Positions 1,867-21,300 of a DNA stretch of 24,385 bases are shown piece after piece; position 1 is the first letter of the stretch, and each line of letters starts with the position of its first letter. A program made the position numbers and the translations under genes. The notes beneath the pieces were generated by a model that searched no databases, was not told the DNA's origin, and worked only from the letters and a program-made list of their open reading frames with translations. The DNA comes from a virus, in the IMG/VR virus record IMGVR_UViG_3300003937_000120, positions 1 to 24,385 of that record; one strand, written 5' to 3'.

Positions 1867-1916
1867 AATTGACATAAAAAAATTATTTAGCGTTTATTTT
1901 CAAACTTTTGTCAATT
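1867..1916. promoter_or_regulatory. Spaced inverted repeat upstream of the capsid operon promoter
   Basis: AATTGACA at 1867-1874 is repeated as its exact reverse complement TGTCAATT at 1909-1916, 34 bases apart. The downstream arm lies about 12 bases before the TATATTTAATAGTAT motif at 1928, where an activator or repressor could contact polymerase. The arms contain TTGACA, but no minus-10 hexamer follows at the right spacing on either strand, so a sigma-70 minus-35 reading is weak. Confidence 0.3.
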
Positions 1917-1927
1917 CCGTTGCAACA

Positions 1928-1942
1928 TATATTTAATAGTAT
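1928..1942 (+). promoter_or_regulatory. Late-type promoter motif of the scaffold/capsid operon
   Basis: Copy 1 of TATATTTAATAGTAT, identical to copies at 4600, 13472 and 21286. The TATATTTA core resembles the Bacteroidota minus-7 element TAnnTTTG. If it occupies positions -13 to -6, transcription would start near 1941 and leave a leader of about 45 bases before the scaffold ATG at 1986. No conserved minus-33 element accompanies the four copies. Confidence 0.6.
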
Positions 1943-3491: not shown

Positions 3492-3503
3492 TAAATAACC
3501 TTA

Positions 3504-3546: not shown

Positions 3547-3576
3547 ATAATTAACTTAAAAAAACACGAATAAATT

Positions 3577-4152: not shown

Positions 4153-4579
4153 ATATCAATTGTTTAGGTGGATTTATAGTCTTTATAGGTGATCTTTTCC
4201 ATCTCAAGTTACCATCACCTAATTTACCACATAATAGTTTTTTATTACCTACTAATAACATACTAGGTGGGTACCCTGACAGCAGAGGTGAGCCTGGTTG
4301 TGTTAACTGTTCTAGTGTTTGGTACTTTATATCTGGTTCTATTTGTAGTTCAAACGCTGTCTGGTACATTCCATCTAAAAGTAGTCTAATTCTATCAGGA
4401 TTCCATGGACCTACTAAACTAGCATCTAAATCTCTAGTTATTGGTTTGTGTAATATACCACCATATACCCATAATTCATAGTCAGACCAGTCCATTTGTT
4501 TTACTTGATCTAACCATTGAATGAATCTTGCGTCATCCATACTGGCAATAGGTAGAAATTTATCACATTTTAAGATCAT
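4151..4579 (-). CDS. Nucleotidyltransferase-fold protein (putative)
   Basis: A 142-residue minus-strand protein standing alone between two structural operons. Residues 40-41 are GG in ELWVYGGILH, then TRDLDASL gives D50-x-D52, then EPDIKYQ gives D83. GG followed after about ten residues by DxD and about 30 residues later by another Asp is the minimal catalytic signature of the Pol-beta nucleotidyltransferase superfamily. The rest (SPLLSGYPPSMLLVG, WKRSP) is not recognised. It might transfer a nucleotide to a protein, RNA or small molecule, for example in takeover or anti-defence, but the target is unknown. The fold call rests on motif spacing only, and the GG pair is less strict than the usual GS. 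Confidence 0.5.
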   Translation of the reverse strand: MILKCDKFLPIASMDDARFIQWLDQVKQMDWSDYELWVYGGILHKPITRDLDASLVGPWNPDRIRLLLDGMYQTAFELQIEPDIKYQTLEQLTQPGSPLLSGYPPSMLLVGNKKLLCGKLGDGNLRWKRSPIKTINPPKQLI

Positions 4580-4599
4580 ACACCAACTTTTATGTTTTT

Positions 4600-4614
4600 T
4601 ATATTTAATAGTAT
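4600..4614 (+). promoter_or_regulatory. Late-type promoter motif of the portal/fibre operon
   Basis: Copy 2 of TATATTTAATAGTAT. With TATATTTA at -13 to -6, transcription would start at about 4613, leaving a leader of about 21 bases before ATG 4634. The motif overlaps an in-frame ATG at 4592, which would therefore lie upstream of the transcript. This is the reason for choosing the later start. Confidence 0.6.
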
Positions 4615-5002: not shown

Positions 5003-5010
5003 AAACAAAT

Positions 5011-6183
5011 ATGGAAGAAAATAACAATTTATATTCAATTAAAGGATCTCAGTTCCAAGCTATTGAATTACCAGCAATTAAAGAAGTTAGAGGAAAAGAT
5101 TACATGAGCTTTGGTGCTGATAATTTATTTCCACAATTATTAATTGATTTATATGATAACTCTGCAATGCACCATACTTGTGTAGATGCAATTAAAGAAG
5201 GTATTTTAGGAGAAGGTTTAGAAACTATTGGTGATGAATATATCAATACTGCTGGAGAAAGTATAGATGAAATACTTGAAAAAATTACATTAGATTATGC
5301 GTTATATCAGGGTTATTCTATCAATGTTATATGGAATAAAGAAGGAACTGGTATTGCTGAAATTTACCATTTACCGTTTGCTAACGTTAGATCTGGTAAA
5401 AGAGATGAAGAAGATAAAGTTAATGAGTACATGTATTCGTCTAATTGGGCGAATCTTCGTAAATATCCGTTTGAAACGTATAAATGCTTTGATGCAACAG
5501 ATAACAAAGGAGACAACGCAAGTCAAGTTTATTATTGTTTTAACTATACTCCTGGCAATGAGGTTTATCCTTTACCTGGTTATGTTGGTGCATTAAATGA
5601 TATAAATTTAGATCACAGAATTAGTGTCTTTCACAATTCTAATATATCACAAAATTTAATGCCTTCCATGATAATAAAAATGAACAATGGTATTCCTACA
5701 CCAGAGGCACAGCGTGAAATTTATAGAGAAATTCAAAATACATTTAGTTCTGAATCTAATGCTGGGAAGTTCTTTTTAACATTCTCTGATGGTTCTGAAA
5801 GAGCTATGGATGTCCAAACTATTGATGCTTCGAATGATGACTATTACATTACACTTGAACAGCGAATTTCAAGTAGAATTTTGACAAGTCATAGAATAAC
5901 TTCACCACTTTTATTGGGAATTAAAGATGCTAGTGGTTTTAGTAATAATGCAGATGAGATTGCAGTAGCTTATGCACACTTCGAGGGAACAGTAATTGAA
6001 CCTAAACGTAAAAAGATATTATCTAGTTTTGGATATATTTTAAAACTTGCAGGTTATAATGTTAAAATGAAAATTAAACCAAATAGGTTATTAAGTATGA
6101 GTGATGTTAGTGATGCACCTGGTGATATTAACCAAGATGCACCTAATACAAGAGATGCAGACGTATACCCAGACGAAATATAA
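5011..6183 (+). CDS. Portal protein
   Basis: A 390-residue protein that forms the dodecameric ring through which DNA enters the head. The N-terminal pattern FGADNLFPQLLIDLYDNSAMHHTCVDAIKEGILGEGL (positions 34-70) is characteristic of portals of Bacteroidota phages. A central segment HRISVFHNSNISQNLMPSM (202-220) and HRITSPLLLGIKDASGF (294-310) followed by NNADEIAVAYAHFEGTVIEP complete the usual order, the latter corresponding to the long clip/stem helices. The length is on the short side for portals. It lies in an operon with the connector, but is separated from the terminase genes by the whole early region, which is unusual. Start is preceded by AAAACAAAT. Confidence 0.83.
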   Translation: MEENNNLYSIKGSQFQAIELPAIKEVRGKDYMSFGADNLFPQLLIDLYDNSAMHHTCVDAIKEGILGEGLETIGDEYINTAGESIDEILEKITLDYALYQGYSINVIWNKEGTGIAEIYHLPFANVRSGKRDEEDKVNEYMYSSNWANLRKYPFETYKCFDATDNKGDNASQVYYCFNYTPGNEVYPLPGYVGALNDINLDHRISVFHNSNISQNLMPSMIIKMNNGIPTPEAQREIYREIQNTFSSESNAGKFFLTFSDGSERAMDVQTIDASNDDYYITLEQRISSRILTSHRITSPLLLGIKDASGFSNNADEIAVAYAHFEGTVIEPKRKKILSSFGYILKLAGYNVKMKIKPNRLLSMSDVSDAPGDINQDAPNTRDADVYPDEI

Positions 6184-6191
6184 TAAAACAA

Positions 6192-6782
6192 ATGGACACA
6201 GTATTACTAGTTAGTGAACAAAGAATGAAGCAATGGACTTCATTAGATAATAACATACGCATTGATGTTCTTACACCAAGCATTTTAAATGCACAAAGTG
6301 TGTATACACAGCAGTCATTAGGATCTCGTTTTTATAATAGATTAAAATCAGGAGTTGTAGCAAATGATTTAACTACTAACGAGAATAATTTCTTACGTGA
6401 CTATGTTGGACCTTCACTTATGCAATATGCATTGTATTTAGTGTTACCTAGTTTAAAATATAAATTAGTAGAAAAAGGAATTGTTAGTGGAACTTCAGAA
6501 GAAACTGCTGCATCGACATTGGAAGATATGAAATATCTTAGACAGAATGCCATGAACTTGGCACAGTTCTATGATGAAAGATTAAGGGAATATTTAAGTG
6601 ATAATCCTGGTATGTTTCCAGAATATCAAAATCCTGGAACAGATGGTATGCAACCTGATAGAGGTGAAGCATATCAAAATCAATTAGTAACTAAAATACC
6701 AACAACTAGAAATGAAAGAGATCTCTGGATATACGCAGATTGCGGGACGGATTGCGACCCCGACTGTAGCAGCTGCAACTAA
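6192..6782 (+). CDS. Head-tail connector-like protein with cysteine-rich tail
   Basis: A 196-residue, mainly helical protein just after the portal, where adaptor proteins are usually encoded. The core (ILNAQSVYTQQSLGSRFYNRL, NNFLRDYVGPSLMQYALYLVLPSLKYKLVEKGIVSG, ASTLEDMKYLRQNAMNLAQFYDERLREYL) resembles connector-like proteins that I recall from Bacteroidota phages, in which helices pack against the portal. The final residues contain C184, C188, C192 and C195 with CxxxCxxxCxxC spacing, encoded by CpG-rich codons unlike the rest of the gene. That tail may bind a metal or form disulfides and looks recently acquired or variable. The adaptor function is inference from position and helical pattern. 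Confidence 0.6.
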   Translation: MDTVLLVSEQRMKQWTSLDNNIRIDVLTPSILNAQSVYTQQSLGSRFYNRLKSGVVANDLTTNENNFLRDYVGPSLMQYALYLVLPSLKYKLVEKGIVSGTSEETAASTLEDMKYLRQNAMNLAQFYDERLREYLSDNPGMFPEYQNPGTDGMQPDRGEAYQNQLVTKIPTTRNERDLWIYADCGTDCDPDCSSCN

Positions 6783-6829
6783 GGCTACTCGCAATAATGT
6801 TAAAAAGTTAAAAATATACTTACGTAAAA

Positions 6830-7006
6830 ATGGGAACATTGGACAAAAAGTTAAATAGCTGGGTTAGTAAGAAGTTGTTTGTATTCATCATAGCAACTGC
6901 CCTCGCTGTGTTTGGTGATCTAACATCATCAGATTGGGTAACTATAGCAACAGTATATATAGGAACACAGGGAGTCATTGATGCTGTCACAAAATTAAGA
7001 AAATAA
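6830..7006 (+). CDS. Small membrane protein, second holin candidate
   Basis: A 58-residue protein. Basic N-terminus (TLDKKLNSWVSKK), one clear hydrophobic span at about residues 16-29 (LFVFIIATALAVFG), a polar turn (DLTSSD) and a second weakly hydrophobic stretch at 36-53 (WVTIATVYIGTQGVIDAV). A two-segment hairpin of this kind is common in small phage holins, and the YIGTQGVID segment is familiar from such proteins in Bacteroidota phages. It starts 47 bases after the connector gene and stops 3 bases before the next ATG. An ATG at 6797 in the same frame reaches a stop after four codons, so 6830 is the start. Holin is inference. Confidence 0.6.
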   Translation: MGTLDKKLNSWVSKKLFVFIIATALAVFGDLTSSDWVTIATVYIGTQGVIDAVTKLRK

Positions 7007-7009
7007 TAT

Positions 7010-7348
7010 ATGCAATCAGTACAACAACAATACGTATTAATTCAAAGTCAAGGAGCAGTAACAGAACCAGTTAATGGTAATTGGTTACAAGGTTATTGTG
7101 AATATTTAGGTGTTACAGAGCCAGTAAATTCAAGTTGGTTACAAGCACTTTGTATTAATTTTGGAATAACTCAACCTCTTTATGGAAGTTGGACTATTGC
7201 ATTAGCAAATTACTATGGTATTACAGCACCACAAAATGGAACATGGTGGTATGCATTATCACAAGCACCAGTTCCACAACCAACATTCCAATGGGATTTA
7301 AATACAAATCAATGGGAAGCTGAAACAAGAACATGGTCACTAACATAA
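7010..7348 (+). CDS. Protein of four tandem 18-residue tryptophan repeats
   Basis: A 112-residue protein. Residues 17-88 are four exact-length repeats of 18 residues with consensus [VI]TxPxNGxWxxALxxxxG; tryptophans stand at 25, 43, 61 and 79. The C-terminus (FQWDLNTNQWEAETRTWS) adds more tryptophans at irregular spacing. No signal peptide or membrane segment is seen. It lies between a holin-like gene and the YadA-like fibre, so it may be a virion appendage, fibre chaperone or attachment protein. I recall similar repeats in marine phage proteins but no function. Repeats of constant length with conserved W and G suggest a solenoid or repeated binding unit. Confidence 0.65.
   Translation: MQSVQQQYVLIQSQGAVTEPVNGNWLQGYCEYLGVTEPVNSSWLQALCINFGITQPLYGSWTIALANYYGITAPQNGTWWYALSQAPVPQPTFQWDLNTNQWEAETRTWSLT
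7058..7273 (+). repeat. Four tandem 54-bp coding repeats
   Basis: The four 18-residue units of the preceding protein correspond to four consecutive 54-base blocks. Protein identity between units 1 and 2 is highest (shared VTEPVN and SWLQ-like cores); units 3 and 4 have diverged. The array could expand or contract by recombination. Confidence 0.6.
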
Positions 7349-7375
7349 ATTAAAATAAATACAAATTAATAAATT

Positions 7376-8206
7376 ATGGCAACATTAACAGGACAACAAA
7401 TAGACGCTACTTATCAAGGTATATTAAAGACCTTAGATAATGCAGCTCTTGATGGAACAAACAGAGTGATCTCTGATGGTGTAGGTACAGCACTACCATT
7501 AGAAGCATCAACAACAACAATTAAGTTTACAGGAAATGCAGACTTTACATCAGCAACAGTAACTGGTGATAATAACACTACTTATACTATAGGTTCAGTA
7601 CAAGATGGATTAAATGCTGATATTAAATTAACAGATCAACTTGGAAATGAGTCTAAAGCAACTCTTGTAGCAGGAACTAATATTACTTTAACTAATAGTG
7701 GTAATGATTTAACTATAGCTGCAGCAGGTGGATCTGCTGGTATGGTAGCTGGTACTGGTTCTAATTCAGTACAGAGTGCTGTAACAGGAGCTACAGGAAA
7801 TGCAAGTGTAAGTAATTCAATCGCGATTGGTAACGGAGCAAGTGCTTCCGGAGGAACAGGAGCCATGGCTTATGGCCAAGATGCGGTCGCCAATGGTACG
7901 CATGCGGCAGCTTTTGGACAATATGCAGAAGCTACTACCTCATATGCTATTAGTTTTGGTAGAACTTCGGTCGCTTCGGGTGATGGTTCGGTAGCATTCG
8001 GGCAGCAAACATCAGCTGGTCAAGCTGGAGCGGTAGCAATGGGGCGCCAGGTTACAAGTATAAATGCAGATACTACTCACGTTAGAGCATTATATGTAGT
8101 TGCACCTGATGGTGGAACTGGTGGTAATGGTATTACAATGCTATCTCCAAACGGAACAGCATACACATTAACTGTGTCAAATGCAGGAGCTTTAGTTATT
8201 TCATAA
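7376..8206 (+). CDS. Tail fibre / receptor-binding protein with YadA-like head repeats
   Basis: A 276-residue protein. The N-terminus (LTGQQIDATYQGILKTLDNAAL) resembles attachment segments of phage appendage proteins in Bacteroidota phages. Residues about 145-225 hold repeats of the trimeric autotransporter YadA head type: SIAIGNGASA, AMAYGQDAVA, AAAFGQYAEA, SISFG-like AISFGRTSVA, SVAFGQQTSA, AVAMGRQV, roughly 14-16 residues apart, which form a left-handed trimeric beta roll. The C-terminus (GGNGITMLSPNGTAYTLTVSNAGALVIS) is a short terminal beta module. It is the last gene of the portal operon. Bases 7822-8046, encoding the YadA repeats, contain 15 CpG dinucleotides against one in the previous ~445 bases, a sign that this receptor-binding module was acquired from elsewhere. 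It lacks the YadA membrane anchor, so it is not a bacterial adhesin gene. Confidence 0.75.
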   Translation: MATLTGQQIDATYQGILKTLDNAALDGTNRVISDGVGTALPLEASTTTIKFTGNADFTSATVTGDNNTTYTIGSVQDGLNADIKLTDQLGNESKATLVAGTNITLTNSGNDLTIAAAGGSAGMVAGTGSNSVQSAVTGATGNASVSNSIAIGNGASASGGTGAMAYGQDAVANGTHAAAFGQYAEATTSYAISFGRTSVASGDGSVAFGQQTSAGQAGAVAMGRQVTSINADTTHVRALYVVAPDGGTGGNGITMLSPNGTAYTLTVSNAGALVIS

Positions 8207-8351: not shown

Positions 8352-8387
8352 AAAGGGTAGAGTTTTCATAATCTCTACCCTTTTTTT
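8352..8387 (+). terminator. Terminator 2 of the control region
   Basis: AAAGGGTAGAG (8352-8362) pairs with CTCTACCCTTT (8373-8383) around a 10-base loop, and T residues run to 8387. This is the strongest terminator in the window and isolates the late fibre operon from the early region. Confidence 0.88.
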
Positions 8388-8448: not shown

Positions 8449-8501
8449 TTATGAAACAAAGACCACCTGTCCCATATAATAATCAAACAAACATAAATAA
8501 T

Positions 8502-8678
8502 ATGGAATATCAATCACGTAAACTAAGCTTTCATCAAGCTGAAAAGATTAGAGAGCTCTATGACAAGGGAGCTACCCAGAATCAGTTAGCAAGATACTAC
8601 GATGTGTCTAAAGGAACTATTAAATCAATCGTACAGGGTAAGTCCTATGTGCGCGAGTACACTAAATATAATAAATAA
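8502..8678 (+). CDS. Mini helix-turn-helix protein, first early gene
   Basis: A 58-residue protein (75 if the upstream ATG 8451 is used). It is almost entirely one homeodomain-like HTH: SFHQAEKIRELYDKGATQNQ then LARYYDVSKGTIKSIVQGKSY, with the second helix at about residues 26-33 and the recognition helix at about residues 35-44. Such domains occur in resolvases, terminase small subunits and HNH-associated modules; alone they usually bind DNA as regulators. Being first after the early promoter, it may control early transcription or bind the origin. Start 8502 (AACATAAATAATATG) is chosen because 8451 lies 2 bases after the minus-10-like element. Confidence 0.65.
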   Translation: MEYQSRKLSFHQAEKIRELYDKGATQNQLARYYDVSKGTIKSIVQGKSYVREYTKYNK

Positions 8679-8695
8679 ACACAAACAATTAAATT

Positions 8696-8854
8696 ATGGA
8701 AATCAACGAAAAACCAAAAGGTAAATTCTTTCTAACAAACAAAGAAAGACAAACAATCTTAAAACTAAGATTACAGAAGTACAGTATTAAACAAATTGCA
8801 GATGCAACAGGTAGATCTACTACTACAGTTAAAAGAATAATCTATAACTGGTAA
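8696..8854 (+). CDS. Second mini helix-turn-helix protein
   Basis: A 52-residue basic protein: a lysine-rich N-terminus (EINEKPKGKFFLT), then NKERQTILKLRLQKYSIKQ and IADATGRSTTTVKRIIYNW, a three-helix HTH with the recognition helix at about residues 40-50. It is a distant structural partner of the gene just before it, and the two may bind DNA together or antagonise each other. It begins in the typical AAATTATG context and its stop is followed by one base before the replication initiator ATG, indicating one operon. Targets are unknown. Confidence 0.62.
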   Translation: MEINEKPKGKFFLTNKERQTILKLRLQKYSIKQIADATGRSTTTVKRIIYNW

Positions 8855-8855
8855 T

Positions 8856-9593
8856 ATGAATCTAAAACAATTAATAGGATCGCAAGCTTATTGGATAGTT
8901 AATAAAGAATTAGCTATGTCAATAGGTTTACATGAAACGATACTACTACAACATTTAGTAGATTTAGCAGATTCTTTCTTTAAAAAAGGAGAACCATTTT
9001 ATCAACAACAATCTAGACTAGTTAACGATTTACCATTATCAGAACATCAGATAAGGAAAGCTACTAAAGTATTAGTTGATAAAGGATTCATAACTGCTAA
9101 AAGATCTGGTATACCACCTAAATATCATTATGGTATATGCGAAGACAATCTATATAGGTTCTTTAACTTAACCTATAAACATGAAGAAACTGAATCTTTA
9201 AAGGTTAAGAAAGTTGACAAGAAACACCAAGAATTAACATTAACAGAAACAATTGACAATAACACTAAGTTAGTCGATACGACTGATGATATTCTCGGTA
9301 AGATCTTTTTTAAGATAGTAGAATTCTATCCTAAGAATAGAATAGGTAATCGTCAGCATGGACTAAAGAAGTTTAAACAACTGGATATTGATCAAGCTAA
9401 ACTTGCCGCTACAAACCTAAAAAGATATTTAACAGTAGCAGGACAATACGTTAAATCTTTACAAAACTATATAGATCAAGAATGTTATTCAGAAGCGTGG
9501 TTAAAAGCAGAAGAAGAAACAAAACAGAAACAAAACAATATAACAGAAAACAAAACAAAAACATTTATACAAGATTATGACAACATCAGTTAA
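8856..9593 (+). CDS. Replication initiation protein (winged-helix, DnaD/O-like)
   Basis: A 245-residue protein. Residues 8-105 match the winged-helix N-terminal domain of phage replication initiators: SQAYWIVNKELAMSIGLHET, then LLQHLVDLADSFFKKGEPFYQQ, LSEHQIRKATKVLVDKGFIT, and a wing ending AKRSGIPPKYHYGI. A charged linker (105-150) leads to a C-terminal domain (IVEFYPKNRIGNRQHGLKKFKQL ... YLTVAGQYVKSLQNYIDQECYSEAWLKAEE) that resembles DnaD-like C-terminal regions, with the typical tryptophan near the end. The next gene is a DnaC-like loader overlapping by 17 bases, as in lambda O/P-type modules: the initiator melts the origin and recruits the host helicase through the loader. The A/C-rich 3' end of the gene could be part of an origin. 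Confidence 0.75.
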   Translation: MNLKQLIGSQAYWIVNKELAMSIGLHETILLQHLVDLADSFFKKGEPFYQQQSRLVNDLPLSEHQIRKATKVLVDKGFITAKRSGIPPKYHYGICEDNLYRFFNLTYKHEETESLKVKKVDKKHQELTLTETIDNNTKLVDTTDDILGKIFFKIVEFYPKNRIGNRQHGLKKFKQLDIDQAKLAATNLKRYLTVAGQYVKSLQNYIDQECYSEAWLKAEEETKQKQNNITENKTKTFIQDYDNIS

Positions 9594-10050
9594 ATTAAAC
9601 AGAGAAGAAGCCAAAGAATGGTTACAAAAATCTAAAAATGGATCTATATTAATAGGATCTCCGGGCGTAGGTAAGACTACTCTAATTGCAAAACAAAGAA
9701 TGGTTAGTGCATCATTACTTGCTATGGAATTCCAAGCAAATGGATTAGAAGCAGTTAAAGCGTTGATACAAAATCAAGTAGAATATCAAGACAAAACCGT
9801 TATTATAGATGATTTAGGTTTAGAAGATGACGTTAAACATTTTGGTAATGGTCTAGACCCAGTTGCATATGTAGTACAAAGAATTTATGATATTAATCAA
9901 ATGTCAGATCAAAAGATTAAACTTATCTTTACTACTAACTTAGGTGAAAAGGCAATGATTGAAAAGTACGGTATTAGAGTTAAAGATAGAATATGGGAAA
10001 TGTGTGATCGTCTTGTGATAGAAGATACAAATCTAAGAGCTAAAAGCTAG
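9577..10050 (+). CDS. DnaC-like AAA+ helicase loader
   Basis: A 157-residue ATPase, overlapping the initiator by 17 bases. Walker A GSPGVGKTT is at residues 27-35, Walker B VIIDDLG at 75-81, sensor I FTTN at 118-121, and a downstream YGIRVKDRIWEMCDRL (131-146) corresponds to the box with the arginine finger (R138) in DnaC/IstB-type proteins. The N-terminal helicase-binding domain of DnaC is missing, so the protein is a bare AAA+ core and shorter than bacterial DnaC. It would load the host DnaB helicase at the phage origin. With no polymerase or primase in the window, the phage depends on host replication enzymes. Confidence 0.8.
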   Translation: MTTSVKLNREEAKEWLQKSKNGSILIGSPGVGKTTLIAKQRMVSASLLAMEFQANGLEAVKALIQNQVEYQDKTVIIDDLGLEDDVKHFGNGLDPVAYVVQRIYDINQMSDQKIKLIFTTNLGEKAMIEKYGIRVKDRIWEMCDRLVIEDTNLRAKS

Positions 10051-10062
10051 GCTGCAGAATTT

Positions 10063-10073
10063 AGATATATAAT
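10063..10073 (+). promoter_or_regulatory. Internal early promoter candidate (AGATATATAAT copy 3)
   Basis: This 11-mer is identical to the sites at 8230 and 8438, and is one of the few intergenic places in the early region (10051-10084). TATAAT lies at 10068-10073. No minus-35 is visible. It would add transcription for the genes from 10085, including the sigma-like gene and the terminases. Confidence 0.45.
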
Positions 10074-10084
10074 AAAACAAACTT

Positions 10085-10576
10085 ATGAGAGTACAAATTC
10101 CACATTGGGCTAAAGACGTTAAAGACGAATCGATATTATTATTAATTGCATTTGCACATAGAGTAACAATGAAATATGGACATGATACATGGTATAGCCT
10201 ACATAAAGAGGACGCAGGTGTTATGTGTAATAAAAGATCAGCAGGTTTATTTCAATGGTTACAAGAACAGGAAACTGGTCTAATGGAGTTTGGCGAACCA
10301 TATGATCACACTCTGGTATTTAAGATGCCATACCTACCTATGCGTGGAGGCAATCAGAAATCTGTAGATTACATAGAGTTCTCAAAAGAAAGAGAACGCC
10401 TAGTATGGATGTATATCTTAGGTTGTGTTAACCATAATATTCTGCAAGATAATATAGCAGAGACTCATGGTAGATACAGAAAGAATACATATCAAGTAAC
10501 AGAGTTTTCAATTAGCAGAGTTGCTGAAGGTTATATTAGAAAACAAGACAGAGATGAGAAGAAAAAAGCTAGATAG
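10085..10576 (+). CDS. Unknown early protein
   Basis: A 163-residue protein that I do not recognise. It begins MRVQIPHWAKDVKDESILLLIAFAHRV, has an alternating helical pattern, a central segment (TLVFKMPYLPMRGGNQKSVDY) and a basic C-terminus (RKQDRDEKKKAR). No catalytic motif, membrane span or signal peptide is visible. It follows the helicase loader and a promoter-like site, so a replication or transcription accessory role is possible but unsupported. Its 3' end overlaps the next gene by 23 bases. Confidence 0.6.
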   Translation: MRVQIPHWAKDVKDESILLLIAFAHRVTMKYGHDTWYSLHKEDAGVMCNKRSAGLFQWLQEQETGLMEFGEPYDHTLVFKMPYLPMRGGNQKSVDYIEFSKERERLVWMYILGCVNHNILQDNIAETHGRYRKNTYQVTEFSISRVAEGYIRKQDRDEKKKAR

Positions 10577-10790
10577 AATAGTCTATGATGATTATCCAAA
10601 TGCCAGTATTGAAGATCAAGAGATTGCAAAAGAAAGGGTATTTGAATATTATTATGATAGAAACAATATGAATCTAGCTGATGCTATACTAGAAATACGT
10701 GAAGATCTTTTTCTTTTAGAAGATATTGAACAGTATGAAAGGTGTGCACTACTAAACGATATATTAAAAACATTTGATACACTTGAATAG
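10554..10790 (+). CDS. Small acidic unknown protein
   Basis: A 78-residue protein using the ATG at 10554 inside the end of the preceding gene. The frame is open further upstream to an ATG at 10521, but that would add 11 residues and a larger overlap, so 10554 is preferred. It has a basic start (RRKKLDR), then alternating acidic helices (ASIEDQEIAKERVFEYYYDR, LADAILEIREDLFLLEDIEQYERC). No motif is recognised. It precedes and overlaps the sigma-like gene, which suggests translational coupling and possibly a partner of it, for example an anti-sigma or co-activator; this is speculation. Confidence 0.55.
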   Translation: MRRKKLDRIVYDDYPNASIEDQEIAKERVFEYYYDRNNMNLADAILEIREDLFLLEDIEQYERCALLNDILKTFDTLE

Positions 10791-11337
10791 ATTCTTAGAA
10801 GATAATTATGAAGAAATAATGCTTATGTCCAAAAAGATTTGTAAATCAAATAGTGAGTGGGAAGATGTTGCACACTTTTGTATTATTAAGTTTACTGAAC
10901 ATGAAAGAGCTCAAGAACTAATACAAGCAGGAGAAGCTATGAGATTTATGTCTGGAATGATACACAGATCGTTCTGGTCAAACACATCTCAATATTATAC
11001 AGAATACCATCAGAAAGGTAGAATGGAACCATGTCACACTATCTATGATGATGCACTTGGACAAGTAGAAGAGTTTGACATGGAAAAAGAAATAGCTATA
11101 GAAGCTATACTTGGTCAAATAGAAGATATGAAACACACTGATGGCGAAGGTGGTAATAGAGATATTAAGCTATATGAAATGGCAGAACTGTTACAACAAT
11201 GGTCAGAAACACCTAACTTTAGTGAATTATCTAGAAAGACAAAGATACCAAGAACAGCAATTGCACATTCAGTAAAGAGTGCTATTGAATACATACAATA
11301 CCAACTAAAACAAAACAATATAAGATATGATAATTGA
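10774..11337 (+). CDS. Sigma-70-like transcription factor (putative late sigma factor)
   Basis: A 187-residue protein. The N-terminal half (FLEDNYEEIMLMSKKIC, SEWEDVAHFCIIKFTEH, then MRFMSGMIHRSFWSNTSQYY) follows the pattern of sigma region 2: two helices, a D-x-x-H segment where ECF-type factors have DLLHDVFLKF, and an aromatic/basic helix that would melt the minus-10. The C-terminus (FSELSRKTKIPRTAIAHSVKSAIEYIQYQL, residues 149-178) is an HTH like sigma region 4. No other function is obvious. The start is TTG at 10774 (or TTG 10783), because the family usually begins about ten residues before the conserved NYEEI; the first ATG at 10819 would cut helix 1. The size equals that of phage T4 gp55, a comparison only. 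It is encoded before the late operons it might activate. Confidence 0.55.
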   Translation: MIHLNRFLEDNYEEIMLMSKKICKSNSEWEDVAHFCIIKFTEHERAQELIQAGEAMRFMSGMIHRSFWSNTSQYYTEYHQKGRMEPCHTIYDDALGQVEEFDMEKEIAIEAILGQIEDMKHTDGEGGNRDIKLYEMAELLQQWSETPNFSELSRKTKIPRTAIAHSVKSAIEYIQYQLKQNNIRYDN

Positions 11338-11551
11338 GATATTAGGAATGGCAGCATTTGGACATTTAGCTGCAGACTTTTTAGAAAACTTTGAATGGTT
11401 ACCAAACAAACCATTTAAGTGTAACCAATGTTTAACATTTTGGTTAAGTATAGGTCCATTTATGTTAGAACATGGATGGATTGGATTTGCAATGGCAGGA
11501 TGTGCCGCAATAACATCAGAATTAATTTATAGAATACTATTAAAAATATGA
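11327..11551 (+). CDS. Small membrane protein with CxxC (DUF1360-like)
   Basis: A 74-residue protein overlapping the sigma-like gene by 11 bases. It has a hydrophobic N-terminal segment (IIEILGMAAFGHLAADFL), a CNQC motif at residues 32-35 in the context KPFKCNQCLTFWLS, and a C-terminal hydrophobic stretch (GWIGFAMAGCAAITSELIYRIL). The CxxC followed by xxFW and membrane segments resembles DUF1360-type small membrane proteins that occur in many phages. Function is unknown; membrane remodelling or superinfection exclusion are possible. Confidence 0.6.
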   Translation: MIIEILGMAAFGHLAADFLENFEWLPNKPFKCNQCLTFWLSIGPFMLEHGWIGFAMAGCAAITSELIYRILLKI

Positions 11552-11766
11552 AAGCACAAGAACTAACAACAGAACAAATCCAATGGATTAAAAACAATGA
11601 GATGATATTTAAAATATCTCTAAGATTGCCACAACAAACATTACAAATGGTATTTGATATACACAACCATATAACAGGTCTTAATAAAAAGACAACATCA
11701 TGTGGTAGATGTGTAGAAAATACTAAGAAGATCGTTTACGGTCAATATCAAAAACAAACTATTTAA
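11548..11766 (+). CDS. Unknown small protein with CxxC
   Basis: A 72-residue protein that begins in an ATGA overlap with the preceding stop. The N-terminus is helical (ELTTEQIQWIKNNEMIF), followed by LPQQTLQMVFDIHNHIT and a CGRC motif (C52, C55) in TSCGRCVENTKKIVYGQY. I recall small proteins of this pattern from Bacteroidota phages, but no function is known to me. Two consecutive small CxxC proteins suggest a functional pair, perhaps sharing a metal or a redox role. Not homologous to each other outside the motif as far as I can see. Confidence 0.58.
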   Translation: MKAQELTTEQIQWIKNNEMIFKISLRLPQQTLQMVFDIHNHITGLNKKTTSCGRCVENTKKIVYGQYQKQTI

Positions 11767-11767
11767 T

Positions 11768-11899
11768 ATGAAAATAAAAGAAGTAACAATCAAAGGAATT
11801 ACTTATACAGTAAGAGGTGAAACAGATAAAGCAATTAAGAAAGCCGTAAAAGATTTGCGCACACTTAACAAAAAAACAAAAGACGAAGATGCCATTTAA
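11768..11899 (+). CDS. Short basic unknown protein
   Basis: A 43-residue protein starting one base after the previous stop and overlapping the small terminase by 11 bases. Sequence begins MKIKEVTIKGITYTVRGETD and ends in a lysine-rich helix (KAIKKAVKDLRTLNKKTKDED). No domain is recognised. The tight spacing on both sides and the A/T-rich start context support it as a real gene; a beta hairpin followed by a helix is suggested. Confidence 0.5.
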   Translation: MKIKEVTIKGITYTVRGETDKAIKKAVKDLRTLNKKTKDEDAI

Positions 11900-12227
11900 G
11901 AAGAACGATCCTAACATACAAAGAAAGGGTAGAACAGGACCAAACAAATCTACTAAGATGATGAAAGAAGCTTTTGCATTACTAGTAGAGAACAATCTTG
12001 ATAATATGACTATATGGTTATCCCAAGTTGCATCAGAAGATCCTGCTAAAGCTATGGACTTAATGATTAAGTTATCTGAAAGATTTGTACCTGCGTTAGC
12101 CAGAACTGAGGTTACAGCTAAAGATGGTGAAGATCTATTTAAGTCACTTAAGTTTAATTTCGGACCAACTATAGATTCAGATAAAAGAATACATGACGCC
12201 GAGTGGCACGAAGACTTTGAAAAATAA
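11889..12227 (+). CDS. terS: Terminase small subunit (putative)
   Basis: A 112-residue protein whose stop overlaps the large terminase start (TAATG). It begins with a basic flexible stretch typical of small terminases (KKNDPNIQRKGRTGPNKSTKMM) and continues as helices: KEAFALLVENNLDNMTIWLSQV, then PAKAMDLMIKLSERFVPALARTE, the pattern I associate with small terminase subunits of Bacteroidota phages. The acidic C-terminus (DAEWHEDFEK) could contact the large subunit. It binds the packaging site and regulates the motor. The family resemblance is from memory; position next to the large terminase supports it. Confidence 0.68.
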   Translation: MPFKKNDPNIQRKGRTGPNKSTKMMKEAFALLVENNLDNMTIWLSQVASEDPAKAMDLMIKLSERFVPALARTEVTAKDGEDLFKSLKFNFGPTIDSDKRIHDAEWHEDFEK

Positions 12228-13453
12228 TGGAAGTAACTGGATTTAATCCACATCAAGGACAACAAAGAGTAATTAATACCATAGTGAATGGTACTGAAAA
12301 GTATATCACTGTGGTTTCTCCGCGTCAACAGGGTAAATCATTACTACTAATCAACCTAATCTTATACTATGGTATAAATGACAAAGGCAGTAAGATAGGA
12401 ATAATAGCACCAATATACCAACAAGCAAGAAAACTAATGGAAGATCTATATGAAGCCATTAAAGATTCAGGTATAGTAGAATCAACTAACTTCAGTAATC
12501 ATGAGATAAAACTAAGGACAGGTAGTAAAATCTATTTCAGATCATCAGAAAGAGAGGATGGTTTAAGAGGGTATACATTTGACTACCTATTTATGGATGA
12601 GGCAGCATACCAAACAGAGGATGCATACCGTAGAGCTATAGAACCAACAGCACTTGTTCATGGTAAAAAAGTAGTCCTGTTCAGCACACCACGTGGCAGA
12701 GACTGGTGGTATAACATGTACCAACTTGGTGAGAACCCTGAGTACACCAACTATGCTAGCGTGCGCATGCACCAAGGTGATAATCCTTATATAGATCAAG
12801 AAGAAGTCTTAGCAGCCAAAAAAGTATTACCAGATGCAATATACAGAGCAGAATACCAAGGAGAGTTCTTAGAAGGAGAATCACAAGTATTTAGTAACTT
12901 CAACACTAATACATTTGACCAATATCCACAAAGAAATGGCAAAGTCTTTATTGGTGTCGATTTAGGTAGAGAATCAGATTATACAGTAGCTGTAGCAATG
13001 GATCAACAAGGAAATGTTATTGAGATCTACAGAGATAATCAAAAGGATTGGGATGTGATGCAATCTAATATCTTACAGTTAGCTCGCAAGTACAACGCAA
13101 CTATAATGATAGAGACTAACTCTATGGGTACAGTAATCTTTGAATCTATTAAGAAGCAATACCAAGATACACATCCATTTGTTACATCAAATCAAAGTAA
13201 GAAAGATATAGTAGAAAGTTTAATCCTTGCATTCAATGATAATCAAATAAGTATACCATCACAAGAGTTATTTCCAGAGTTACACCATGAATTAGAAGTC
13301 TTTGAGATGTCATATAATCCTAAAACAAGAACAGTACGTTATGCATCACGCACACCATTTCATGATGATATTATTATAGCACTCTGTATTTCAAACTGGA
13401 ATCGTTTACAAAATAAACAAACAGGTCAGTATGCATACATAGGCATCAGATAA
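12227..13453 (+). CDS. terL: Terminase large subunit (packaging ATPase and nuclease)
   Basis: A 408-residue motor protein. The ATPase has Walker A SPRQQGKS (31-38), a segment GIIAPIYQQARKLM (58-71), Walker B YLFMDEAA (120-127, D124/E125) and coupling motif FSTPRG (152-157). The RNase H-like nuclease has FIGVDLGRESDYT with D245, MIETNS with E296, and FHDDIIIAL with D380/D381. All expected catalytic acids are present, so it looks functional. It drives DNA into proheads through the portal and cuts the concatemer. It overlaps the small subunit by one base. On the circle it is separated from the portal gene by the entire early region, unlike most tailed phages. Confidence 0.95.
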   Translation: MEVTGFNPHQGQQRVINTIVNGTEKYITVVSPRQQGKSLLLINLILYYGINDKGSKIGIIAPIYQQARKLMEDLYEAIKDSGIVESTNFSNHEIKLRTGSKIYFRSSEREDGLRGYTFDYLFMDEAAYQTEDAYRRAIEPTALVHGKKVVLFSTPRGRDWWYNMYQLGENPEYTNYASVRMHQGDNPYIDQEEVLAAKKVLPDAIYRAEYQGEFLEGESQVFSNFNTNTFDQYPQRNGKVFIGVDLGRESDYTVAVAMDQQGNVIEIYRDNQKDWDVMQSNILQLARKYNATIMIETNSMGTVIFESIKKQYQDTHPFVTSNQSKKDIVESLILAFNDNQISIPSQELFPELHHELEVFEMSYNPKTRTVRYASRTPFHDDIIIALCISNWNRLQNKQTGQYAYIGIR

Positions 13454-13471
13454 TTCACAATAACCAATTAA

Positions 13472-13486
13472 TATATTTAATAGTAT
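13472..13486 (+). promoter_or_regulatory. Late-type promoter motif of the tail operon, fused to the start codon
   Basis: Copy 3 of TATATTTAATAGTAT; its last two bases are the A and T of the start codon ATG at 13485. With TATATTTA at -13 to -6 the transcript would start exactly at the A of ATG and be leaderless. It lies in the 31-base gap after the large terminase gene. Confidence 0.62.
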
Positions 13487-14162
13487 GGAGATAATAGTTA
13501 ATGATAAGACATACAAGTTTAATGACAGACTCACAATCAAACAGTGGTGTTCTGTTATGCGTTATGACTTTTCCAATGCTGCAAACTGGCCAACTATTAT
13601 TAACCTTATTACAGGAGTGGACAAAAGAGATCTAATCAAAGGTACACCAGATGTCTTAGAACTCGGAGCTGCTATCATAGTTCAAATGTGTAATGCTAGA
13701 ATTCAATCACAGATTAAACCCTTAGATACTCTAACATTCGGAGAGTTTGTAGATCTTGATAGTTACATCGCGATGGGTACACACCAACATCTCGAAGCCA
13801 TGTCAGATATATTAACACCTAATACTGAGTATGCCGATGAAGCACTATGGGCAATTGAACAGTGGACTAATTACAGACTTGGTATATTCAGACAATATAA
13901 AGAACTATTTGGTTTAGATGATGAAGATGAATATGAACCAGAGACCACCGAGGTTGACACAATACAGAATGACCTAGTAGCCAGAAACTGGTATAAGATT
14001 ATAGTAGATCTTGCACAGGATGACATACTAAGATTAGATGCAGTCACAGACCAACCATTAATTAAGACCTTAAACTTCATGGCACTCAGAAAAGAAAGAC
14101 AGTTAGAAGAGAACATGAGACAGATAGAACAAAACTCAAAGATAAAAACACAATACAGATAA
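13485..14162 (+). CDS. Putative tail assembly chaperone
   Basis: A 225-residue acidic, helical protein that begins the tail operon. The start MEIIVNDKTYKFNDRLTIKQW is a typical beginning of phage tail-related small proteins, and TFGEFVDLDSYIAMGTHQHL (residues 84-103) resembles a pattern I recall from tail assembly chaperones and related proteins of marine phages. An acidic insertion (LDDEDEYEPETTEVD) precedes a helical end (KTLNFMALRKERQLEENMRQIEQN). The order is chaperone, then terminator, neck and tail genes. No frameshift signal is seen. The start is embedded in the promoter motif. The functional call is tentative. Confidence 0.45.
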   Translation: MEIIVNDKTYKFNDRLTIKQWCSVMRYDFSNAANWPTIINLITGVDKRDLIKGTPDVLELGAAIIVQMCNARIQSQIKPLDTLTFGEFVDLDSYIAMGTHQHLEAMSDILTPNTEYADEALWAIEQWTNYRLGIFRQYKELFGLDDEDEYEPETTEVDTIQNDLVARNWYKIIVDLAQDDILRLDAVTDQPLIKTLNFMALRKERQLEENMRQIEQNSKIKTQYR

Positions 14163-14163
14163 T

Positions 14164-14628
14164 ATGTTTACCTACAAACAAATAGTAGATCTATTCAAAC
14201 AAGCTAGCTTCGACCATCTAATGATTGAAGACTTTGGTTATGGAGCGATCTCAGACATCAAGACCCGTAATGAATCCGCTAATGGCGACGAGGAAGTTAA
14301 TTACCCTTATTGCTTTCTTAATCCTACAACACATCAGAGAGCTCAGGCTACAGTAACATACCAGTTTAATATGATTATGATGGATATGGCAAGAGATGAA
14401 GAGGGTGATAAGTATGAGAACTTCTTAACTATCCAATCTCAGTGTCAACAATACTGTGATGATATTATAGCACACATATGGAATTCAGCTGGTAAACAAG
14501 ACATGCAGTTTACTGTAACTTATACACCATTTGTAGAGAGATTCCAAGATGAACTAGCAGGTATGACAGCAGGTATACAGATACAGGTGCCAATACCAAT
14601 AAACGATTGTATAACACCTTTTAACTAA
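14164..14628 (+). CDS. Putative tail completion/terminator protein
   Basis: A 154-residue protein. Its pattern (YKQIVDLFKQASFDHLMIEDF; VNYPYCFLNP; ATVTYQFNMIMMDMARDE; FLTIQSQCQQYCDDIIAHIW; ERFQDELAGMTAGIQIQVPIPINDC) matches a family I recall from Bacteroidota phages at this place: an alpha/beta protein that begins with a helix and ends in a strand after the D-x-x-A-G-M turn, like tail terminators that cap the tail at the neck. It starts 1 base after the previous stop and its own stop overlaps the next ATG (TAATG). The role is inferred from position and fold pattern. Confidence 0.5.
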   Translation: MFTYKQIVDLFKQASFDHLMIEDFGYGAISDIKTRNESANGDEEVNYPYCFLNPTTHQRAQATVTYQFNMIMMDMARDEEGDKYENFLTIQSQCQQYCDDIIAHIWNSAGKQDMQFTVTYTPFVERFQDELAGMTAGIQIQVPIPINDCITPFN

Positions 14629-15107
14629 TGGCTGATTCACTCGCAGGACTAGAAGAAAGATTAGCTGGCATGGAACAGACCATGAGAGATCTCGCACCAA
14701 TACTCACCGAGGTTGGCAATGAGATTACTAGCGAGTTACGTTCAGATGCACCACGTGGAAATGGTGAAGGAGCAGGAGCTCTTCAATCTAGTATTAGTTT
14801 GTCAGTGCAACCAACTCAGTTTGCTATTAGTATGAATGACTATGGTGTCTTTCAGAACTATGGAGTAGTTGGATATAAAGGAGGCGATAGAGCTACAAAC
14901 CCAAGAGGTGGACAAAAGATACCTGACGAGAACTTTCCACAAGGAAGTGGCGATGGCGGTAGGTACCAATTTGGTGTTAAACAACCATCAAAAGGATGGG
15001 GAGCTTACTATACAGGTTTTAATAAAAACATTGGTTGGTTCGACATAGATGAAATTACAGAAAGAGTTAAGACAAGAATACAAACAAAAATAATACAAGC
15101 ATTCTAA
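14628..15107 (+). CDS. HK97 gp10-like neck/tail completion protein
   Basis: A 159-residue protein. Core features are NEITSELRSDAPRGNGEGAGALQSSISL followed by FAISMNDYGVFQNYGVVGYKGG, which match the 'LRs-x-aP ... tGaLqsSI ... ndYg-x-fqnyGv' pattern of gp10-type head-tail joining proteins. The middle (ATNPRGGQKIPDENFPQGSGDGG) is a glycine-rich loop and the end (DIDEITERVKTRIQTKIIQAF) a long helix. It would complete the interface between tail and head. It begins in a TAATG overlap with the previous gene. Confidence 0.65.
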   Translation: MADSLAGLEERLAGMEQTMRDLAPILTEVGNEITSELRSDAPRGNGEGAGALQSSISLSVQPTQFAISMNDYGVFQNYGVVGYKGGDRATNPRGGQKIPDENFPQGSGDGGRYQFGVKQPSKGWGAYYTGFNKNIGWFDIDEITERVKTRIQTKIIQAF

Positions 15108-15110
15108 ATT

Positions 15111-16529
15111 ATGCCAACAACTATTACAATATCACAGTTACCTAATACACCATTTGATATGGCGTATGGTCCAAACCCTATTACACTATCAGGCATCTCG
15201 TCAGCAGAAGACAAGTATGTTCTTAGAATCTTTGACGGAGGAGCAACACCACTTGCAGACATCAGACAAACACCAAATTCATATGGTAAAGCCATCTTTG
15301 ATATGCAGAATATCTTGCAGTCTAAGGTAGCACCACCTGATGATAATATAGATTCTCTAGGTGTCGGACCAGCAACTAATAACTCCATTAGAAACTCAGT
15401 AGCTGAATCTGTTGTATACACTCTCAGTATAGGTTATGAAGTAGGTGGTGTGGTTACTCTGATGCCTGTTGGTTATGGACCTTATATTGCTTATGGTGGT
15501 TCTAAGAAATACTTCGAAGTGCCTTTCTATGCAGAAGCATACCAAGCAGAGGTTACTGATGGTGTTGACAACTGTAACCAAGTAAACAGAGTTGGTTTAG
15601 CACTAACAGATATTAAATGGTTAACAGGACCAGCAGACACTGGAGATGACATACAAGATTATATTACTATTAATCAGAACATATCCACACGTAATGTATA
15701 TTCAGATGATATGACTACTACGAGTTGGTTTCAGACTATAGACCGTAGAGGTAACCTTAACACTAAAGTCAGAGGTATAGAAGCTTGGAAGATATACTTC
15801 TGTACAGATGACCTAGTTCAAGGTTTACCAGTAATTGTTCCTAATACTACGAGTTATAGTGGTGGACCTAATGCATCTATTGGTGATGGCTTTGGTGTCT
15901 CAAATACTTTAGCTGCTATTACACTAGCAACAGGACCTTACAATTTACCTGGAAGTATTACTATCCCGGCGGGGACAACACACTATTACGTAGTACCTGT
16001 TGCATATGGTAACAGTTTATGTTCTACTACTGTTAATGACTTAGATGACCAAGATCTAATGCAAGCACAGAGATTTAATATAGTAGATGCTCAATGTAAT
16101 GACTTTGAACACTTTCAGTTTTCATGGTTAAACTCATTAGGATTTAAAGACTACTTTACATTTACTAAAAGAGTAGATAGCTCATCTAACACTCGTAGAA
16201 ACAACTTCCTTAAAGAGGCAGCAGATTATAATGGTACTTCATACCAAGTCAGCGAGGGACAGCGTGGCTATACTACATACTCATCTAAAATAGAAGATAT
16301 ATACACAGTAACATCTGGGTATATGAATGATGACCAAGCCAAATTATTACAAACTCTGTTTCAATCAGCAGATGTTAGAGTTAGAATGGCAGATGATGCA
16401 CCATTAGTGTGGAGACCTATTAACATTTTATCATCTACATATGATCAAAAGACAAATAGAAAGAATAAACTATTTCAATACACTGTTAGATTTAAAATAG
16501 CACATAACATAAAAGCACAAAGAGGTTAA
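15111..16529 (+). CDS. Tail protein (distal tail-like)
   Basis: A 472-residue beta-rich protein. N-terminal beta sheet strands (ITISQLPNTPFDMAYGPNPI, KYVLRIFDGGATPLADI) are followed by a domain with disulfide-type cysteines, and the C-terminal part (FQFSWLNSLGFKDYFTFTKRVD; YTVTSGYMNDDQAKLLQTLF; DVRVRMADDAPLVWRPINILSS; QYTVRFKIAHN) is a pattern I know from tail proteins of Bacteroidota phages preceding the large tail-tip protein. It probably forms the distal ring connecting tube and tip. The gene contains one copy of the CCCGGCGGG 9-mer (15965). It abuts the next gene with one base between stop and start. Confidence 0.62.
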   Translation: MPTTITISQLPNTPFDMAYGPNPITLSGISSAEDKYVLRIFDGGATPLADIRQTPNSYGKAIFDMQNILQSKVAPPDDNIDSLGVGPATNNSIRNSVAESVVYTLSIGYEVGGVVTLMPVGYGPYIAYGGSKKYFEVPFYAEAYQAEVTDGVDNCNQVNRVGLALTDIKWLTGPADTGDDIQDYITINQNISTRNVYSDDMTTTSWFQTIDRRGNLNTKVRGIEAWKIYFCTDDLVQGLPVIVPNTTSYSGGPNASIGDGFGVSNTLAAITLATGPYNLPGSITIPAGTTHYYVVPVAYGNSLCSTTVNDLDDQDLMQAQRFNIVDAQCNDFEHFQFSWLNSLGFKDYFTFTKRVDSSSNTRRNNFLKEAADYNGTSYQVSEGQRGYTTYSSKIEDIYTVTSGYMNDDQAKLLQTLFQSADVRVRMADDAPLVWRPINILSSTYDQKTNRKNKLFQYTVRFKIAHNIKAQRG

Positions 16530-16530
16530 T

Positions 16531-19500: not shown

Positions 19501-21267
19501 CCACAGTATACAATTAATAACAGTTATACAAATTGTTCAGATTGTAATACTCAAACTCCACCTCAAATTTATAAAGCAGAAGCAACATGTTATAAAACAG
19601 TAATAGCTACACCAGATCTTTATATAGATGCTGCTGCAAATCCTGGTATAGAAATAGGACAATCAGTTAAATTTGTTAATAATGAAATATGTTATGAAGT
19701 AACAGAACTTATAACTGGAAACAATTCAGTTACTCAAGTAGATTCTGTATATGAAACATGTGAGGATTGTGATGCAGATGGAGTGTTTAAATATATCATA
19801 GAAGGTTGTAATGGATTTAATCCTAGTTCTCCACCACCATCAGGAGGTAGTACACCACAAACTGGACAGTTAGTAGATGATGGAGAATATGCAATCTCTC
19901 CAATATTTACATCTGCAGTTCATGATGCTGGTGATACTAACATCCCTATATGTGAAAGACAATCTCTATGGGTTTCAGGAACAGATACAGATGGAACTGC
20001 TACACCCCCGGCGGGATGGTATTGGTTTGAAACTAATTTACGACTTGATAATCTAGTTGCTTTACCAACAGATGCAGTTGTTAGTTTGGTTAGAATTAAT
20101 GACCCTGTAGGTTCAGGTGCTAATTATGGTGAGATTATAAATGTAATAGAAACTTATCAACTTCCTAATAAAGGTGCTAGTGATACAAATGTATTTACAG
20201 TACAATCAGCAGCATCTCATTATTTACCAGAAGACTCTACACAAAGATTTGCTATAATATTACACAGAGCAGACGGAGGAGCATGTGTCCAAGGTGGTGG
20301 AACTAACTCAGATTTTGCAGTAGTTAACTCGGTGACAGGTGCACCAGGTGCTGACTTTACCAATGTTGAAATGTATTGGTTAGGTGATTTTGCAACAGGA
20401 AGTGTTATGGAAGCTAACGGACCATTAAATATTGGTGATGTAGTTAATGTAAATGAATCAGAAGCACAAGGATGTTATGAGGTGATTGCACTCGCTAATC
20501 CTGATGATACTACAGAGTTTACATATAATGAAACAAATGGTGTATTTGAAGACTGTGCCACATGTACGGGTGGAAACACAGCACAGCATTGTTATCAAGT
20601 AACAGCATCTGTTGGCGGTGCAGAAATATCATACTACTTTGATGATGGTGGTGTATGTGCAACATGTGTTGGACTAGCTGAAATTACTTTAGCTTTAACT
20701 AGTAATCAAGTAGTTACTATATGTGCACAGATTAATTCTATTACTACTATTAGTGGTAGTATAGTTTCAGCAATAGATTCTGGTGAAGAATGTGACAGAT
20801 ATGTAGATCCAATAACAAGTGTAGTAGGAACTACATGTGATACACCTAGTGTAGCAACTAAATACTGTTATACAGTAACAGGTGCAGGATTCGAAGGAAC
20901 ATTCTCGACATTTACATGGCTTGAAGATAATGAATTTAGAAGAGCTCGTCTTTTATATGGCACATCTATGAGTATATGTGCAAATCAAAATTCAATTATA
21001 GAAACAAGTGGAACTATTACAGTAGTTGGAGGAACAACTGTATGTGATTCTGTTGCAGATTGTGTAGGAACTTGTCATAGATACGCATATGATGGACCAC
21101 CAAAGGTAGACTTAATAGTTAAAACATGTGATGGTGACTTAGTATACTATCCTGATTGTATTGGAGCAACACAAGGACAACCTAATAGTTTATTTCCAGA
21201 TTGTATAGCAGAAATAGTAGGAGGAACAGGACAATTCTTTGTTACAACATACAGCACATGTACGTAA
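16531..21267 (+). CDS. Giant tail-tip/adhesin protein with SprB-like and Cys-rich repeats
   Basis: A 1578-residue protein, 19% of the genome. Residues 1-770 resemble tail-tip hub proteins of Bacteroidota phages (VFSRQFKIPATRNNNLFF; ILVDGQEFRQGHIRLQKIY; IDFVKDILKMFRLVLAPDR). Residues about 777-851 and 860-935 are SprB-like repeats: CGCDGIITV, DGATPFTYQLSNGQTG, DIDGLCAGTYNVLITDDLG. SprB repeats occur in flavobacterial gliding adhesins, which supports a flavobacterial host. The remaining part to 1578 has about 29 cysteines, mostly in C[FY]xV ... CxDC units at 979-1005, 1053-1080 and 1314-1345. These probably form disulfide- or metal-stabilised receptor-binding modules. No transmembrane anchor or signal peptide is present. 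Confidence 0.75.
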   Translation: MIQLKVYPTVDKLRTQQIFLDLYDSEPIKLNLSIEDITDADATSVFSRQFKIPATRNNNLFFKTAFEVNGTDYDVTIKKPAEILVDGQEFRQGHIRLQKIYVNNDLDKTDYQLLFLGETRDFSTVIGDAPLCQLLMPDLQVVDPQTGANRNPTVDDIELSWQAFPQTSTVDSEGNPNGGLSNGNLLFPLIDHGNNYDEEGAVVGSTMQIGNGAQVRSFTESQYPLETSKLKPMIRAKRIMDQIFEDAGYTYTSTFFNSPRFNQMYVSAFGNEAITGYTASGSGENLCNAEYNRQDPQMFGDNLWLPDNVYDPGSNLILGNIPNGSKYVVGGDVPAGDPNTKLRISAEAYVFALVDVSCPGGCTDPVPARLQLVNVSTGQVYKSSGYGYDDIVSFTFDSEFDGVGVLAGSLLALRVDPLTDPDRDEVKDIKFQVQNAPGTLLPTSMLDCEYKQIDFVKDILKMFRLVLAPDRNDSKNFIVEPWQTYINSGNLHDWSHKLVNQKDMVLEPLFNTQSEEIEFRMQQDEDWINKFHFDQFKEPYGYLKFDSNNELLKGTRNITTIGIAPTPMGTIQEDAVNTNHQAPGFIFPQVHVNETEDTGLKHLPMKAKTRLLFYNGLAPVPQSGGALKWYLQTASNFYTTYPLVSSFEDWPQQTTGLNINWSNDINYWVQSSLTQVFSNEQGGTLYTEYWSRYINSLYNKFSRRLTAYFVLNNVDLQDLSFDDTIFVNGKYYRPEKIIDVNIGERTEVKVQLITANDFTPPAYIDEQLTNFSLLPTGEVCGCDGIITVVTDGATPFTYQLSNGQTGQIATTGGNPQQFDIDGLCAGTYNVLITDDLGRSNSGSVVIPENSGTPVQTSEAITGDTSCGAGGNCTGAVTVTPSGGSGSYEVTWQYGQSGPTTGPTLTGLCGNTEQPYTITDLVTGCVYPFTASIPCADPVVLHKLSQHLNGCTQNSSQFYWAESQVSYQPGTTVDLNEIAGCFVVINNDQGTPQYTINNSYTNCSDCNTQTPPQIYKAEATCYKTVIATPDLYIDAAANPGIEIGQSVKFVNNEICYEVTELITGNNSVTQVDSVYETCEDCDADGVFKYIIEGCNGFNPSSPPPSGGSTPQTGQLVDDGEYAISPIFTSAVHDAGDTNIPICERQSLWVSGTDTDGTATPPAGWYWFETNLRLDNLVALPTDAVVSLVRINDPVGSGANYGEIINVIETYQLPNKGASDTNVFTVQSAASHYLPEDSTQRFAIILHRADGGACVQGGGTNSDFAVVNSVTGAPGADFTNVEMYWLGDFATGSVMEANGPLNIGDVVNVNESEAQGCYEVIALANPDDTTEFTYNETNGVFEDCATCTGGNTAQHCYQVTASVGGAEISYYFDDGGVCATCVGLAEITLALTSNQVVTICAQINSITTISGSIVSAIDSGEECDRYVDPITSVVGTTCDTPSVATKYCYTVTGAGFEGTFSTFTWLEDNEFRRARLLYGTSMSICANQNSIIETSGTITVVGGTTVCDSVADCVGTCHRYAYDGPPKVDLIVKTCDGDLVYYPDCIGATQGQPNSLFPDCIAEIVGGTGQFFVTTYSTCT

Positions 21268-21285
21268 TTCAATAGAGTAGAAATT

Positions 21286-21300
21286 TATATTTAATAGTAT
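21286..21300 (+). promoter_or_regulatory. Late-type promoter motif of the tape-measure operon, fused to the start codon
   Basis: Copy 4 of TATATTTAATAGTAT, ending in the AT of the ATG at 21299. As at 13472, a start of transcription six bases after TATATTTA would fall on the A of ATG, predicting a leaderless message. It occupies the 31-base gap after the tail-tip gene. Confidence 0.62.

Follow-up and report, generated by a model that had tools for sequence, protein, structure and literature searches.

A phage-encoded ECF-like protein as the probable sigma factor of bipartite late promoters in an uncultured phage lineage

Introduction

Phage-encoded sigma factors are already known. Late transcription in phage T4 proceeds from gp55 late promoters of sequence TATAAATA with the use of gp33 and the gp45 clamp, and in phage Aeh1 a diverged gp55 accompanies a diverged late promoter (PMC1524935). 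The candidate system described here resembles that of T4 in having a phage-encoded sigma-like protein, late promoters and a conserved AT-rich -10 box, and its two promoter types, distinguished by an A or a C in the box, parallel the Aeh1 divergence; unlike T4, however, this phage has an upstream element at fixed spacing and a protein with its own region 4. Because of that region 4 and the second promoter element, we consider the protein closer to a compact two-domain ECF sigma than to gp55. ECF (group IV) sigmas such as SigL and SigE, which gave the best fold matches, are likewise about 180 aa long, have a region 4 and use a bipartite promoter, and their region 2 has a putative counterpart in the phage protein, but the phage protein differs in that its region 2 has no detectable sequence match, its box is long, AT-rich and in the sigmaA -7 register, and it has no conserved neighbouring anti-sigma.

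The primary sigma factor of Bacteroidota (PMC6847099, PMC9723704) provides the second comparison. Its box, TAnnTTTG, has nearly invariant T-12, A-11, T-8, T-7, T-6 and G-5 (PMC6847099), and transcription starts 4-5 nt after it (PMC6847099, PMC9723704); leaderless mRNAs are a small minority in F. psychrophilum, at 5.5% (PMC9723704). The phage box shares the TAnnTTT, but its last base is A or C rather than the near-invariant G, and a strong phage element lies 14 nt before the box, whereas in F. johnsoniae a -33 element can hardly be made out. Q-like antitermination proteins (phrog_79, PF06530) are similar to the phage protein in the C-terminal HTH, but the phage has several distributed promoters and not one antitermination site. 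The literature we searched on ECF-type phage sigmas with late promoters yielded only work on the AR9 polymerase.

Results

The window, meaning the whole stretch of DNA analysed, covers the 24,385 bases of one virus record, and the same 99 nt recur in direct orientation at both ends. Its genes are labelled early or late here from gene content and order: early genes occupy 8451-13453, with the terminase genes at their end, and late genes run from 13485 through the terminal repeat to 8206, interrupted where genes are reversed (745-1807 and 4151-4579). An intrinsic-terminator-like sequence, GGGTAGAG-N10-CTCTACCC-T7 (8355..8387, plus strand), separates the last late unit from the early genes, its loop of 10 being beyond the limits of the terminator scan. 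One of the reversed genes (745-1266, minus strand) encodes a zinc metallopeptidase-like product with an HExxH motif (GHELRHALQ), and the gene starting at 23232 contains an exact, in-frame 33-bp tandem duplication (23995-24060).

The original prediction located a sigma factor gene at 10774-11337 on the plus strand, with a TTG start inside the preceding gene. The frame is present as a mechanical ORF, but the start used is most likely the TTG at 10783, conserved in homologues, so that the gene spans 10783..11337 (plus strand) and encodes 184 aa. Homologues mostly have TTG or ATG at the matching codon and, upstream of it, show either a stop, several of them just upstream, or non-conserved codons, which makes 10783 the likely real start; their usual start context is [TA]TGAATAA/G, with an 8-nt overlap with the upstream stop. 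The acidic 78-aa ORF said to precede the gene does so, at 10554-10790. Its suggested role as a regulator fared less well: this gene is absent or replaced in many relatives, which have a different gene directly upstream, and its product is therefore unlikely to be an obligate partner. A motif of the acidic protein, EQYERCALLNDILKTFD, recurs in relatives and on visual inspection looks like the UvrB/UvrC UVR motif; Pfam gave no UVR domain match. Behind the sigma-like gene, 11327-11551 encodes a small protein with a CxxC (CNQCLTFW) that is syntenic in nearly all relatives. Two HTH genes, at 8451 and 8696, were considered as alternative DNA-binding candidates and set aside, being present in few relatives. 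The presence of the sigma-like gene throughout the relatives compared for their neighbouring genes is by construction, since that set was gathered by this gene.

Searched alone against Pfam, PHROGs and PDB, the window protein had no credible match, and matches to PF18289 (HU-CCDC81) and multicystatin were judged to be chance. Among 52 family members, 30 matched the 'RNA polymerase sigma factor' family phrog_1740, with a best E of 1.2e-6, and 30 matched the 'anti-termination protein Q-like' family phrog_79, with a best E of 1.4e-5, the latter mainly over the HTH-bearing C-terminal two thirds. For profile-profile comparison, the reference was seven ECF sigmas of a Flavobacteriaceae MAG, and the decoys were reversed and 40 shuffled. 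The full profile aligned to these sigmas with a probability of 86 and an E of 5.1e-6 over 96 columns; in hhalign, the C-terminal half reached E 1.3e-5, the best decoy 0.018, and the N-terminal half E 0.24; at the sequence level, no region 2 could be detected.

By phrog_1740 and hhalign, the C-terminal HTH noted in the original prediction belongs to a sigma region 4 (residues 98-184; 11074..11334, plus strand), which we propose recognises the -35 element; its VIA Z to E. coli SigE region 4 is 9.2. The N-terminal half (residues 1-80; 10783..11022, plus strand) had been called region-2-like, a description that the predicted fold upholds weakly and the sequence (E 0.24) does not: its AF2 domain model (pLDDT 84.4, pTM 0.70) has weak matches, mostly to sigma region 2 (VIA Z 6.8, 6.2 and 5.7; Foldseek E 6 or more), and this model suggests a region 2 that would recognise the -10 element. 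The best PDB matches of the full-length model (pLDDT 76.7) are nearly all sigma factors, with ECF SigL first at Z 10.0, and their large rmsd is expected if the two domains differ in orientation. The 184 aa fold into two blocks with a linker of low confidence (79-96) between them, which fits the ECF size of ~170-200 aa without region 3. Given the region 4 profile match and the whole-length fold matches, the predicted sigma-factor identity is the most likely one, and we favour an ECF-like late sigma factor encoded by the phage, with polymerase binding and transcription initiation as predicted activities.

The family of these sigma-like proteins is unannotated, and the lineage that carries it uncultured. 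In four rounds of searching, the number of loci rose from 7 to more than 70, counting viral contigs and two contigs of a Flavobacteriaceae MAG, and the uncultured phages account for at least 81 distinct sequences. When three members were compared by tblastn with 50,697 phage records, nothing usable and no member was returned. The two MAG contigs (L040 and L041, ~24 kb each, in FRAM18_bin221) are of the same phage lineage, which either hints at the host or reflects binning. The product of gene 2592, a probable capsid protein, had no match in the phage records searched, and terL has 26.6% identity to the best listed phage record, so that, judged by this collection, the lineage counts as uncultured.

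The 15-mer with which the protein had been paired has four exact copies in the window, all on the plus strand (1930, 4602, 13474 and 21288). Rather than standing alone, it forms the downstream half of a bipartite element, TAATTCA-N14-TATATTTAATANTAT, that the original prediction had missed. An alignment of 39 non-redundant box copies has C at -16 in 39/39 and A at -15 in most, counted from the first T of TATATTTA, with the consensus TAATTCA from -21 to -15. CA-N14-TATATTTA occurs in the window four times on the plus strand and never on the minus strand (500 dinucleotide shuffles: mean 0.15, maximum 2), and across the family at 102 distinct sites; other spacings between 8 and 23 gave 3-16 sites, and the opposite strand gave 6. 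When TAATTCA alone is used as the seed, the -10 box re-emerges, and 20 carrier records hold 70 sense versus 2 antisense sites (reversed control, 4). The second element, at its fixed 14-nt spacing, contradicts the earlier idea of a -10-only, gp55-like promoter. Sigma-70 promoter scanning of the window found no more than in shuffles, and sequences of the host type TTG-N-TAnnTTTG are few in the window.

All four copies in the window sit at the starts of late units and are on the plus strand. Promoter 1 (1907..1942; upstream ..TTTGTCA at 1907-1913, box TATATTTAATAGTAT at 1928-1942) follows the reversed block 745-1807 and would drive 1986-4095, and promoter 2 (4579..4614; upstream ..CACCA with the CA at 4584-4585, box at 4600-4614) follows the reversed gene 4151-4579 and would drive 4634-8206. 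Promoter 3 (13451..13486; TAATTCA at 13451-13457, box at 13472-13486, abutting ATG 13485) follows terL and would drive 13485-21267, and promoter 4 (21265..21300; TAATTCA at 21265-21271, box at 21286-21300, abutting ATG 21299) would drive 21299 onward through the terminal repeat. The terminase genes had been described as the last before the first late promoter, which is true of the window's own clade and not of many relatives: there, an extra promoter copy lies inside the g11327 homologue, just before the g11548 homologue and the terminase genes, which would place terminase under late control, unlike in the window.

We assessed the association of motif and protein without bias by fetching loci through late gene 13485 rather than through the sigma-like gene. 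Such loci have a strict motif within ~60 nt upstream in 72 of 78 cases, in the same place as promoter 3, and where at least 2.6 kb of upstream sequence is available, 39 of 40 have the sigma-like gene; the sole exception, L205, is truncated, with only 3.3 kb upstream, and its longer relative L207 has the gene. These counts support the proposed pairing, the motif being a probable lineage-specific late promoter that co-occurs with the protein (39/40 spanning loci). The 149 Flavobacteriaceae genomes contain six full-motif matches, four of them on two phage contigs (reversed control, two), and in the putative host MAG all four full-motif matches fall on its two phage contigs. Motif scanning of viral contigs returned mostly members of this lineage, in which the sites precede the orthologues of 4634, 13485 and 21299, and among 28 motif records without the protein, those of the same lineage by window-gene matches show no sigma-flanking genes. 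Phage contig L122, with no match to window proteins and no detectable sigma homologue, carries one exact TTCA-N14-TATATTTAATAGTAT right before an ATG (5731-5762, minus strand), which may be chance.

The phage box is in register with the host TAnnTTTG and departs from it at the final position, generally an A but a C in the one subclade that has TATATTTC in place of TATATTTA; on the sense strand, the base after TATATTT is A at 105 sites, C at 21, G at 1 and T at 2. In the first set of genomes, a single protein column, Lys78 (codon 11014..11016, plus strand), splits the two types perfectly, being K in all A-type promoter genomes and never K in C-type ones. The larger set has K with A in 54 cases and non-K with C in 21, and no row for which a call could be made goes against this; the remaining rows were tied, gapped or without a site. 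On the tree, this pattern needs one change and is essentially one clade, and with so few independent events it is suggestive, though no proof, of a contact between residue 78 and the box base. At ~94 sites, including those of 13485 and 21299 in the window, the first T of the box is followed at 11-18 nt by an ATG, a distance that, in the host register, predicts leaders of a few nt or none.

Discussion

In this uncultured lineage of ~24-kb phages, probably of flavobacteria, a sigma-like protein and a matching two-part switch ahead of the late genes probably redirect host RNA polymerase to the viral structural genes. We regard it as likely that an ECF-like sigma from the early operon sends host core polymerase to the four bipartite late promoters. 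Such a compact sigma would be made from the early operon (8451-13453), bind host core RNA polymerase and direct it to the four TAATTCA-N14-TATATTTAATANTAT promoters, with region 4 reading the upstream element and the region-2-like half the downstream box. With A (or C) instead of the host G at -5, the box would be poor for the host sigma and good for the phage sigma. The promoters lie where late transcription would have to restart, past the early operon, each reversed block and the longest gene.

The same arrangement might be explained by a DNA-binding activator, MotA-like in effect, whose HTH binds TAATTCA and recruits the host sigmaA holoenzyme, which in turn reads TATATTT. The C-terminal HTH is all that sequence comparison establishes, and the box has TAnnTTT in common with the host -7 box (PMC6847099), but we consider an activator unlikely, since the host G at -5 is found in just 1/129 sites, conservation of the box extends past the host element (ATANTAT), the box base co-varies with N-terminal residue 78, as fits direct reading by the protein, and the whole-length fold matches are to sigma factors. 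That the motif is an ordinary host promoter, read by sigmaA or a host alternative sigma, with the protein unrelated to it, we judge highly improbable: TATATTT is compatible with the host TAnnTTT, yet the host G is avoided, and the full motif appears only six times in 149 Flavobacteriaceae genomes, four of these on phage contigs, with two in the control. We see equally little prospect for a Q-like antiterminator acting on late transcripts. The matches of phrog_79 to 30/52 members (best E 1.4e-5) and the position of the gene late in the early operon would suit one, but phrog_1740 matches as many members with a better E (1.2e-6), the HTH is common to both families, and in the phage the fixed bipartite motif marks four distinct promoters instead of one late promoter.

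Within the sigma-factor reading, we offer a more specific proposal that is tentative and, in our judgement, somewhat doubtful as a whole: the phage would have kept the host -7 box save for -5, a base that its own sigma would read through a Lys78 loop (K specifying A, other residues C), so that a single base would hide the late genes from the host sigma, with many late mRNAs starting at, or a few nt from, the AUG. If the register is right, these would be near-leaderless late mRNAs in a phylum where such mRNAs are rare. The promoter code that goes with this sigma-like family can be read from metagenomes alone. It opens promoter choice by the unusual Bacteroidota polymerase to tests at the level of a single base and a single residue, and a candidate lineage-specific promoter/sigma pair is offered for flavobacteria. 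A possible third box type, TATATTTT, lies upstream of the gene 13485 orthologue in one relative (L200), whose protein has K at residue 78.
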